Assembly: GCA_944324235.1 (NCBI GenBank)
Contig: CALUVN010000002.1
Span: 1-64,000 of the forward strand
Direction of reading: 5' to 3'
From: Candidatus Gastranaerophilales bacterium
GTDB taxonomy: Bacteria; Cyanobacteriota; Vampirovibrionia; Gastranaerophilales; Gastranaerophilaceae
DNA: 64,000 bases
Position numbers and translations under genes: made by a program
Shown here: one piece after another, positions 1 to 53,323 of the stretch
Position numbering within the stretch: position 1 is the stretch's first letter
Layout: each line of letters starts with the position of its first letter
The notes under the pieces: model-generated
The model's input: only the letters and a program-made list of their open reading frames with translations
Told to the model about the DNA's origin: nothing
Databases searched by the model: none

Positions 1-2659
1 ACGTTGTAACGGTCATCACCTGATTGAGCACCGTCGATTTTGTCGTCAAAGTATACAACGCCGTTATTTTTTGCTTGTAGTGTCAATGTGCTTGCTGTAT
101 CGCCAACAGCATCCATATAGATTGCGTTTGACTCTTCTACTCCGTTGTTGATTACTTTGTTGCCTGAAAAGACACTTTCGCCGTTGTCTGCAGTTATTGT
201 CAAATCTGTCATTGAATATATTGCACCGCCTTTGGCAGTACCTGTTTCGGAGGTTGTTTCCGCGACGTTATCGTAGAATGATGAGTTGACTATCTCATAC
301 TCAAACCCGCTAATACCGCTAACATCCTCAGGCGCTACGCTGGCTATTGCGCCGCCATAAGATTCGCCGGCGGACACTGCCTTGTTGCCTACAAACATGG
401 AGTTTGATATATTATTAACTGCATAATTTGGAATTTCAAGCGCGCTATCAGTATACAAACCTGACTCTATCATAGCCTCTAATTGTGCTGCCAGTTGGTC
501 ATATTGCTCCTGAGTCATAGGCATTCTCTGGCTCACACTCACTACTGTTGCACCGTCTTGAATAGCTGTGAGAGCTTCCTCTACAGGAACAACATCGCTT
601 CCGGAAGAGGTGAATCCATACAAGCTTTTTTCTTCAATAGTATTACCGGCATCGTCTGTGATAACTAAAATTAACTGTTGGCATAATAAATCGGTATTAT
701 CAGCGATGTCATCATCAGTTATCGCGTTGAAAACAGCACCACCTGCTGCGCCAGTCTGACCTGATGCGTAGTTATTATGGAATTCGCCCTGTATAGAATT
801 GATAGTTCCTGAATTCAGAACAGCACCGCCCTGTGCTACGCGTGAATCTGATTTTGTATAATTTTCTATGAAGTTGCCCTTTATATCGCCTATTGTGCCC
901 ACGTTATAAATCGCCCCGCCGTAGCCAGAATCAGTTGCTGCTGTAGCGTAGTTACCGATAAAGTCACCTGTGATATCAACTATTGTGCCGCTGTTATTAA
1001 TCGCGCCACCGGAGGCAGGAATATAATCATCAGCAGACGCGTAGTTACCGACAAAGTCGCCTGTAATATCACCGATAGTGTCACGGTTATTAATCGCGCC
1101 GCCATGGGAAAAAGAACCAGTAGCAGACGCGTAGTTACCGATAAAGTCACCCGTGATATCACCGATTGTGCCACCCTCGTTATAAATCGCCCCGCCATAG
1201 GCTGTAGCCCCGACAGCATAGTTACCGATAAAATCACCCGTGATATCACCGATTGTGCCACCATAGTTATAAATCGCCCCGCCATTGGTAAAAGAACCAG
1301 TAGCAGACGCGTAGTTACCGATAAAGTCGCCTGTGATATTGCCAATTGTGCCACGGTTATAAATCGCGCCACCCTCTGCCAAACTGTCAGATGCGTAGTT
1401 ACCGATAAAGTCACCCGTGATATCACCGATTGTGCCACCATAGTTATTATAAATAGCACCGCCGTAGCCAGAACCAGTTGCTGCTGTAGCGTAGTTACCG
1501 ATAAAATCCCCCGTGATATCGCCGATTATATCACCGTTATAAATAGCACCGCCGTAGCCAGAACCAGTTTCTGCTGTAGCGTAGTTACCGATAAAGTTGC
1601 CTGTAATGTTACCTATGGTAGCTGTGTTATCCTGCCCATCTGATACGTTATAAATTGCTCCGCCGGAGGCCCGACTGTTGTCGCCAGAATCATTTACTGC
1701 TACAGCATAGTTACCAATAAAGTCACCGGTGATATCACCTATTGATGCTCCTCTATAACCATAGGTATAGTTATAAATCGCTCCACCAAATGCAAGTCGG
1801 CCTGATGCGTAGTTACCGATAAAATCACCTGTAATATTTCCTATTGATGCGATGGCTGTGTTATCACTATTAAAATAGGCGTGAGAATAGTTAGCAATCG
1901 CACCACCTTGAGCGTTTCGATTACCTGTTGCATAGTTACCGATAAAATCACCCGTGATATTACCTATAGTAGCGGATGTAGAGCCGGCATTGTTGCTGGT
2001 ATAAGTAGCTCTGTTAAAAATAGCACCGCCGGAGCCAGAACCAGTTGCTGCTGTAGCGTAGTTACCGATAAAATCACCGGTGATATCACCAATTGATAAT
2101 GTAGAACTCGAATCTTGTGTTATCGCTCCTCCCGAGATGTTACCAGTGCCAGATACGTGAATCCCAGTAAAATTACCTGTAACAGGAGCACCAGCTAGGT
2201 CAGTTGTAACCTCCATTCTGCTGTTGGTCGGGACAGAAGAATCATAAGTGTACGTAATTTCAGAGCCTACAGGTGCAGACGGATTTTCCACAAACGTAAA
2301 ACGGCCGTCATCCGTATATTCCCAGCCAAATTTCAGCGTTTTATCACCGCTTTGCTCCCCGTATGCCGTTTGTCTTAAATTAACCCTATAATATACAGGA
2401 GTAAATTCACCGGTTTCTGAATTATACTCAAACTTTGTTATTGTATTTTCGCCCTCCGCATCTACCTTTGTAAGCGTGTAAGCGCTATCATCACCTAAAG
2501 TCGGGATGTCTAATTCATTCGCAACCGCCGGCATTGTGCCCAGTAAAACTGCGGCTAATAGAGCTTTACACCTTACCCCCCCCCGAAATACACACTATTC
2601 AAAGGTTTACAAGCAATATCAGCATTCAAAGTTTCCGTTTGATACTTAATTTCCCTCAT
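1..2659 (-). CDS. Pmp-like GGAI/FxxN repeat surface protein, 5' part, frame broken at a G9 tract
   Basis: A long minus-strand reading frame is open from about 2575 to the left edge, so the C-terminus is outside the window. It begins with a signal peptide (KALLAAVLLGTMPAVA, then NELDIP). About 160 residues later come at least 12 clear repeats of 28-40 residues carrying GGAIYN and GDFIGNYA, then more distant GGAI and FxxN units (FVGNK, GGAIAS, FYDN, GGAIYS, FSGNK). GGA(I/L/V) plus FxxN is the signature of chlamydial polymorphic membrane proteins, which are type V autotransporters folded as beta-helices. The ATG at 2659 has a strong SD (GGAGG on the minus strand, 2667-2671, 7 nt away). It reads 28 codons and stops at TAA just after nine G. 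Seven or ten G would join it to the signal peptide. The autotransporter beta-barrel is not visible, so membrane anchoring is inferred. A secreted beta-helix protein without a barrel is possible. Confidence 0.8.
765..2100 (-). repeat. In-frame tandem repeats encoding GGAIYN...GDITGDFIGNYA units
   Basis: The DNA shows a recurring block with the core gtagttaccgataaa on the plus strand near 951, 1041, 1132, 1218, 1312, 1395, 1491, 1581, 1706, 1809, 1932 and 2059, with degenerate copies near 772 and 859. Spacing is 85-125 bp. Translated on the minus strand, each gives GGAI(Y/N/F)N, a variable spacer, then IG(D/N)ITGDFIGNYA. Spacers of different length keep the frame. The repeats are peptide-coding, not a CRISPR or satellite. 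Confidence 0.9.
2576..2584 (-). repeat. Poly-G9 tract at the 5' end of the Pmp-like gene (possible phase switch)
   Basis: Nine consecutive C on the plus strand are nine G in the coding strand. With nine G, the frame from the ATG at 2659 meets TAA directly after the tract. The signal-peptide frame has no start codon upstream, only an in-frame TAG. Lengths of 7 or 10 G restore one continuous frame. Homopolymer G tracts at this position are classic slipped-strand switches. Confidence 0.7.
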
Positions 2660-2692: not shown

Positions 2693-2720
2693 AGTATAAC
2701 TCGCTTTTTGCAAATTTAAA
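2693..2720 (-). promoter_or_regulatory. Possible promoter of the Pmp-like gene
   Basis: Read on the minus strand, TTTAAA (2720-2715), a 16-nt spacer and TATACT (2698-2693) lie about 35 nt upstream of the ATG at 2659. The -35 match is weak. The region up to 2895 holds no other gene and probably carries divergent promoters for this gene and the small plus-strand gene at 2896. Confidence 0.35.
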
Positions 2721-52472: not shown

Positions 52473-53323
52473 TATTTATATTTAATTTTCCAGCCATCTT
52501 CAACAATTCGCCCAAAACATCCGCTGCCGGCATTTGGTTCAGGAGATGATATTTCAGGATTACAGGTTTTAACATTTGCCCAGTAATCTGTATAATACCA
52601 GGAATGACCGCCTCCGGAAAATATTTTTGCTCCGTTAGGATACGCTTTTTCTGAATTCATTACAAGCACAACAAAAATATTTTTCCCGAGTGTTGCAAGT
52701 GCATTACGATTCCAATAACCTGTACCAAATTTATAGAACTTATTACTGTCGGTATATATATTTATTTGGGCTCTGAATTTGTCACCGTTCATGTGATAGT
52801 AATTATCGTACATATGCACATTAATACAAAACATATATGTTCCACTTTTGGCAACAACACATTTAGGTAATGTATCATTTTCATATAATCCCTCTTGGGG
52901 CACAAATCCGCCGCCCATTGCATCACTAAAACTACCATCTTTAACCGGAGTAAGTGTATAATATCTGAACCATACACCATCTGTCTCCATAAAACCTTGT
53001 TTTTCGTAAAGGTACCTTGCAAACTTCAATGCAAATTCACCGCTATTAGGGGCACAGTTTGAAAGGTTTCCATCACATTCTTTATCTATATCAAACATCT
53101 TGATATATTCCTGTAAATCGGCATAAGCTTTGCTCAATACTGCAAGATTTTTTTGTTTTTCTATATTCGTCATAACAGCCGGAACAATTAATGCAGAAAC
53201 TACACCTATTATCCCGAGAGTTATCAATACCTCTGCAAGAGTAAAGGCCGATTTTTCAATATTACTGCACGAATATATATATTCTGTAATCCTGAAAATT
53301 ATCTTTCGATAGAATAGTTTCAT
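52469..53323 (-). CDS. Type IV pilin-like protein (prepilin N-terminus)
   Basis: A 284-residue protein. A 26-residue leader is followed by the class III signal SA-FTLAEVLITLGIIGVVSALI with E at +5 and a hydrophobic helix, then a C-terminal globular domain rich in Tyr, Gly and Cys (DKECDGNLSNCAPN, HSWYYTDYWANVKTCNPE, SGCFGRIVEDGWKIKY). It would be processed by a prepilin peptidase and assembled or displayed as a pseudopilin. The SD is GAGGGCAAAAT. No assembly genes are adjacent, so it is an orphan pilin, like the decayed one at 41.6 kb. Confidence 0.85.
   Translation of the reverse strand: MKLFYRKIIFRITEYIYSCSNIEKSAFTLAEVLITLGIIGVVSALIVPAVMTNIEKQKNLAVLSKAYADLQEYIKMFDIDKECDGNLSNCAPNSGEFALKFARYLYEKQGFMETDGVWFRYYTLTPVKDGSFSDAMGGGFVPQEGLYENDTLPKCVVAKSGTYMFCINVHMYDNYYHMNGDKFRAQINIYTDSNKFYKFGTGYWNRNALATLGKNIFVVLVMNSEKAYPNGAKIFSGGGHSWYYTDYWANVKTCNPEISSPEPNAGSGCFGRIVEDGWKIKYKY

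Follow-up and report, generated by a model that had tools for sequence, protein, structure and literature searches.

Most known cases of phase variation through homopolymeric tracts come from host-adapted Neisseria, Campylobacter, Helicobacter and comparable pathogens or commensals, and pmp10 of Chlamydia pneumoniae is reportedly a gene with a poly-G tract. In Neisseria, poly-G loci such as pilC, pglA and lgtA carry a tract of 9-20 G within the ORF, with a modal length of 9-10; N. meningitidis, N. gonorrhoeae and N. lactamica average 15-19 poly-G tracts per genome, and no genome exceeds 82 phase-variable loci when all repeat types are counted (PMC5953494). Deep sequencing identified 115 variable genes in N. 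meningitidis (PMC5084427). In Campylobacter, 77% of the tracts lie in ORFs, mostly as G on the coding strand and with a peak length of 9-10, and the median C. jejuni genome has 20 tracts of at least 7 as counted with PhasomeIt (PMC6321876); strain NCTC11168 has 29 poly-G/C loci (PMC4965091). For the poly-G tracts of the C. pneumoniae pmp genes, phase variation has been hypothesised (PMC4514472). The presence of poly-A/T tracts close to gene starts is a general prokaryotic feature (PMC2831843).

The window that we analysed is a 64,000-nucleotide stretch of a MAG assembly of 1.94 Mb in 80 contigs. Gastranaerophilales are non-photosynthetic gut relatives of Cyanobacteria, and the RsmH adjoining the locus described here is 93% identical to that of MAGs named Candidatus Gastranaerophilales. 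The original prediction had placed in this window a phase-variation switch caught in the OFF state, in which an ATG with a good Shine-Dalgarno (SD) sequence reads through nine G into an immediate stop. On the minus strand we indeed found GGAGG (2667-2671), 7 nt 5' of a well-placed ATG (2659-2657), a G9 tract (2576-2584) 75 bp after this ATG, and a TAA (2575-2573) directly 3' of the tract. The leader ORF (2573-2659, minus strand) consists of 25 codons from the ATG, Gly-Gly-Gly and the TAA, and encodes the OFF product of 28 aa, MREIKYQTETLNADIACKPLNSVYFGGG. The long frame, which runs from 2573 down to 3 on the same strand, reads RCKALLAAVLLGTMPAVA and then NELD; its signal peptide (2520-2573, assigned by eye) is not in frame with the ATG, and the Pmp-like body (3-2573) comprises 857 codons and is open to the contig end. 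The long frame was also said to have no start of its own, and this is the case: none lies upstream of the hydrophobic core, and the only ATG nearby (2534) is within the signal peptide. The arithmetic by which one additional G, or the removal of two, restores a single frame is correct. As assembled, the Pmp-like gene of the window is OFF.

A weak promoter-like site 5' of the gene (TTTAAA-16-TATACT, 2693-2720, minus strand) scored no better than chance in a scan. An AT-rich TATA-AATATA block in this region is conserved among homologs, and an SD-like sequence was found in homologous Pmp-like genes too. Alignment of five Pmp leaders gave G9, G12, an interrupted run, G12 and G10 at the tract position, the homologs of the window tract being G12 on contig C9 of G001, G12 on C14 of G002, G10 on C50 of the genome of the window (G000) and a T-interrupted run on C4 of G001. 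Of two G001 Pmp genes that share one leader, the copy with G12 is out of frame, and the copy with the T-interrupted GGGGGTGGGGGGG (C4) is in frame; a broken run of this kind would be expected of an allele locked in the ON state. The window G9 is a candidate slippage switch on the basis of its sequence, of the genome-wide count of runs given below and of these homologous positions.

The window body contains 17 GGA[ILV] and 19 FxxN motifs, compared to means of 0.4 and 2.7 and maxima of 3 and 8 in shuffled sequences, and on these counts Pmp-like is a fair description. The comparison with chlamydial Pmp proteins that accompanied the original prediction is borne out by these repeats and by PF02415 (Chlam_PMP) matches among full-length paralogs from sister species, two of which scored over the cut-off (L309 and L310) and one below it (L313). 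As in the pmp genes of C. pneumoniae, the gene that encodes a surface protein with GGA[ILV]/FxxN repeats has a G-run close to its 5' end. Unlike them, the genes described here belong to another phylum, no C-terminal autotransporter beta-barrel was found in the full-length Pmp-like paralogs by Pfam or PDB sequence matches, and the window body, which is cut by the contig end, did not match PF02415. A structure model of the Pmp-like C-terminus had a pLDDT of 33 and was unusable, the window gene itself lacking its C-terminus at the contig end, and a comparison with PHROGs yielded nothing of use.

A second copy of the gene, at the end of contig C44 of the same genome (G000 C44:15450-17938), is identical to the window gene (1-2573) at 651 of 705 aa after the tract, and its N-terminal part is 99% identical. 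The contig breaks inside the window gene because this near-identical copy exists, and both contigs end inside the repeat. The C44 copy has a different leader with a G10 tract and is out of frame too. Bodies are thus near-identical after the tract while leaders and promoters differ, a pattern that suggests that bodies may have been exchanged between paralogs.

Across the 1.94 Mb genome we counted 11 G-runs of at least 9 (one G9, nine G10 and one G11), where about 0.2 were expected from a run model derived from the window, with a G-run continuation probability of 0.15. Ten of them sit 29-75 bp after an SD-linked ATG and before a Pmp-like or type IV prepilin gene; the eleventh, on C78, is outside any leader. 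Four tracts precede Pmp-like signal peptides (C2, in the window, C44, C50 and C54), and six precede a prepilin segment, for example FTLAEVLITLGIIGVVAAMT (C2:69070, C9, C18, C28, C34 and C36). PF07963 scored over the cut-off at all six prepilin loci (C2:69002 and those on C9, C18, C28, C34 and C36), and TIGR02532 gave a further match to the prepilin segment. When ON and OFF were called from the best SD-linked ATG, a simple rule by which a few calls may be wrong, three of the ten loci were in frame (C34, C50 and C54) and six were out of frame through the tract (the window locus on C2, C44, C2:69070, C9, C28 and C36). The C18 gene carries a second frame lesion besides the tract, and its tract alone cannot switch it.

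The prepilins without a tract served as an internal control. A PF07963 search of the genome found 19 prepilins, six with a tract and 13 without, and an in-frame start was present in one of the six compared to all 13 of the others (Fisher P = 0.0005); the tract-free prepilins have short leaders, every one of them in frame. In the window itself, a prepilin N_methyl segment without a G-tract (53186-53251, minus strand; locus L084) is in frame with an SD-linked ATG. Genes for the pilus motor are present in the genome, with PF00437 over the cut-off on C14, C36, C25 and C16.

An out-of-frame gene may be a decaying pseudogene, a paralog no longer functional in which the tract is a fixed frameshift. 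In keeping with decay, the window gene and its near-identical C44 copy are both out of frame, and the C18 gene has a second lesion. However, the out-of-frame genes retain long open bodies on which purifying selection acts, with dN/dS values of 0.17-0.39 in pairs containing an out-of-frame member (0.35 for the window gene and its C44 copy, both OFF), and in-frame copies are present elsewhere in this genome (C34, C50 and C54). Decay is already disfavoured by these observations, and we regard it as very improbable.

A check of other loci for G tracts near signal peptides had been proposed with the original prediction, and it came out strongly in its favour in the genome, the genus and the family. 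In three species of the same genus (G001, G002 and G003), tracts were again found in Pmp-like and prepilin leaders, and tracts of these relatives also lie in genes for a glycosyltransferase, an SDR, a DHHW/AlgX-like protein and an acyltransferase. We surveyed 145 genomes of the order, one per species, of which 133 belong to the family and 12 to other families. At least one tract of at least 10 G was found in 112 of the 133 family genomes; 65 have at least 10 such tracts, 24 at least 50 and 7 at least 100, with a maximum of 176 in a genome of 2.2 Mb. In the 12 genomes from other families the number of tracts is 0-3. In 1.35 Mb of rsmH surroundings from 80 related records, run lengths were bimodal, with two runs of 7 G, one of 8 G and 31 of 9-13 G (0.3 expected). 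A general excess of homopolymers was ruled out, as A-runs of 10 do not track the pattern of G-tracts.

The number of tracts broadly tracks that of prepilins, with 96 prepilins and 111 tracts in G012, 116 and 80 in G006, 55 and 33 in G009, and 62 and 33 in G004. Expansion of prepilins alone was ruled out as the cause by G010 (111 prepilins, one tract) and G016 (89 prepilins, none). Other genes have a G-tract in their interior or at the 3' end (L123, L124, L130, L141, L353, L127 and L138); several of them are glycan-related (glycosyltransferase, SDR, AlgX/DHHW-like, acyltransferase), and they form a second class of targets. In G012, tracts at L055:3249 and L056:1044-2603 lie at the start of a 497-aa protein that fits no known family and of one with a PRTase-CE domain, neither of which is obviously a surface protein.

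Since the genomes are MAG assemblies and errors concentrate in long homopolymers, a miscall by sequencing or assembly could make a gene appear out of frame when it is truly in frame. Such errors would not yield bimodal tract lengths, placement in prepilin and Pmp leaders or restriction to one family, and the nine tracts of exactly 10 in the genome of the window are found with genes in different frames. For the tract set as a whole a miscall is already disfavoured, and we hold it to be very improbable.

As in Neisseria, homopolymeric G (or C) tracts lie in the ORFs of surface or pilus-related genes. Unlike Neisseria, a genome of the Gastranaerophilales family can have up to 176 tracts of at least 10, and dozens of prepilins are themselves targets, whereas in Neisseria poly-G tracts act on pilC and pilin-glycosylation genes, and pilE varies mainly by recombination. 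Glycan enzymes are among the targets both in Campylobacter and here (glycosyltransferase, SDR, acyltransferase); unlike in Campylobacter, prepilins dominate and the tracts lie in a short leader.

We scored tract position by a 5'-leader test, which 162 of 216 tracts (75%) passed compared to 9.3% of random positions, in a non-random set of loci that comprised rsmH-flank loci and most G012 stretches taken regardless of tracts, and others selected for the tracts in them. Of the 24 tracts in the batch added last (G104, G119, G035, G127 and G091), only 10 passed. About a quarter of all tracts lie elsewhere in genes or in intergenic sequence. Among the 162 leader tracts, 31 are in frame, and 71 and 60 are in the other two phases. 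The ON fraction is below one third, with P = 8e-5 if loci are independent, which paralogs sharing a length are not. That the loci are OFF by default with occasional ON copies is the weakest of our inferences.

Differences in tract length were sought in 46 locus pairs in which both 60-nt flanks were at least 80% identical without gaps. Fifteen of these pairs, which compare paralogs or species rather than strains, differ in tract length, in every case by one G and with a change of frame. In G004, for example, L242 (11 G, in frame) and L306 (12 G, out of frame) have flanks that are 97% and 95% identical, and for two loci on L317 of G012, whose tracts are 13 and 12 long, the flank identities are 95% and 100%. 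The orthologs L009 (genome of the window) and L132 (G001) have 11 and 12. In nine G009 prepilins the tract is a C-run on the coding strand, and G-sense tracts are also found in G009 prepilins. The occurrence of both senses fits a process at the DNA level.

Alternatively, programmed slippage at the RNA level, by RNA polymerase stutter or ribosomal frameshifting, would give some in-frame product from every copy regardless of tract length, which would only tune its level. Most assembled copies are out of frame yet conserved, and one out-of-frame length dominates some genomes (13 in G012, 10 in G009), as such slippage would allow. One-G differences in DNA between near-identical copies speak against it, as does the T-interrupted copy, which is exactly in frame, and C-runs and G-runs in the prepilins of one genome would need different ribosomal slip codons. 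We consider RNA-level slippage improbable.

To describe the prepilin targets we aligned 27 prepilins of G012. Their N-terminal 110 residues are near-constant (mean entropy 0.3-0.6 bits), whereas the C-terminus is highly variable, reaching 2.1-2.4 bits in its most variable parts. A model of a G012 prepilin (pLDDT 84) had as its top fold match the C-terminal domain of Legionella Lcl (E 7e-6), followed by C-type-lectin-like proteins, and all six G012 prepilins tested matched Pfam Lcl_C below the cut-off. This C-terminal adhesin domain of Lcl is described as PF07603 and PDB 8q4e (PMC11162425). The G012 C-terminus resembles it by top fold match and by a weak Pfam match under the curated cut-off; unlike in Lcl, the domain is joined to the N-terminus of a type IV prepilin and occurs in many divergent copies. 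In G012, the species covered by this comparison, the switched genes resemble pilus adhesins in which the binding domain is variable and lectin-like. G012 loci L051-L070, L151-L159 and L314-L320 belong to a set of about 100 paralogous prepilins, most with their own G-tract, in which the N-terminus is constant and the Lcl_C/C-type-lectin-like C-terminus hypervariable.

Translated dispersed repeats (for example RHSEDEVRRIS, CHSETPQAGSESVT and SRNKFGMT) lie between the tract and the prepilin segment in leaders at L242, L268 and L306 (G004), L254 and L260 (G006), and L157 and L316 (G012), as if the cleaved leader tolerated repeat insertions. In G010 and G016, equally large prepilin families have mostly short in-frame leaders.

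The window G9 very probably belongs to a set of poly-G contingency loci that extends through the genome and the family and would phase-vary by slipped-strand mispairing, seen here in the OFF state. The original prediction concerned a single Pmp-like locus; the tract and its frames are confirmed and the reading as a switch is supported, but the locus is one of many, and the main targets are prepilins and not Pmps. In the mechanism that we propose, a G-run of about 9-14 (or a C-run on the coding strand in some genes) a few codons after the start, N-terminal to the signal peptide or prepilin leader, would gain or lose a G by mispairing during replication, so that reading from the ATG either continues in frame into the body (ON) or meets an early stop (OFF). 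Tract length would change within a population, and expression of the protein would follow the frame. As the tract is encoded before the part removed by signal peptidase or prepilin peptidase, its glycines would be absent from the mature protein. Phase variation is supported by where the tracts lie, by the frame states of the genes, by near-identical copies that differ in a single G, by intact bodies under selection and by the taxonomic pattern across genome, genus and family. Against it stand the rarity of ON states (31 of 162, below one third), the second lesion in C18 and the quarter of tracts that lie elsewhere. A further point against it is that two MutS-type genes are present in every family genome checked; lost mismatch repair was ruled out as a cause, and because these genes are present there is no such loss to raise the rate of slippage.

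A literature search, with preprints and most subscription journals outside its scope, returned no paper that links phase variation to Gastranaerophilales or Melainabacteria. Although such a mechanism is known, its lineage, its scale and its main target here (prepilins, with hypervariable lectin-like tips in one species) appear to be unreported. We are inclined, if only just, to the view that the family has the largest poly-G repertoire described, and that there are species in which a prepilin family of about 100 copies, constant at the N-terminus and hypervariable at a lectin-like tip, has nearly all of its members controlled by a G-tract of their own and mostly OFF, such that each cell would show a small, random, heritable subset of adhesins in a combinatorial surface code.

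The finding carries a warning for annotation, in that many such genes, being out of frame as assembled, will be classed as pseudogenes or receive wrong starts. It describes a family-wide trait in uncultured gut bacteria of the cyanobacterial line, with prepilins rather than mostly glycan enzymes as its targets. With most loci probably OFF at any time, each cell would display a small and changing subset of pilins and Pmp-like proteins, which may allow escape from phage or immunity or alter adhesion, and the finding is relevant to the ways in which commensals vary the surface that they present to phage and immunity.
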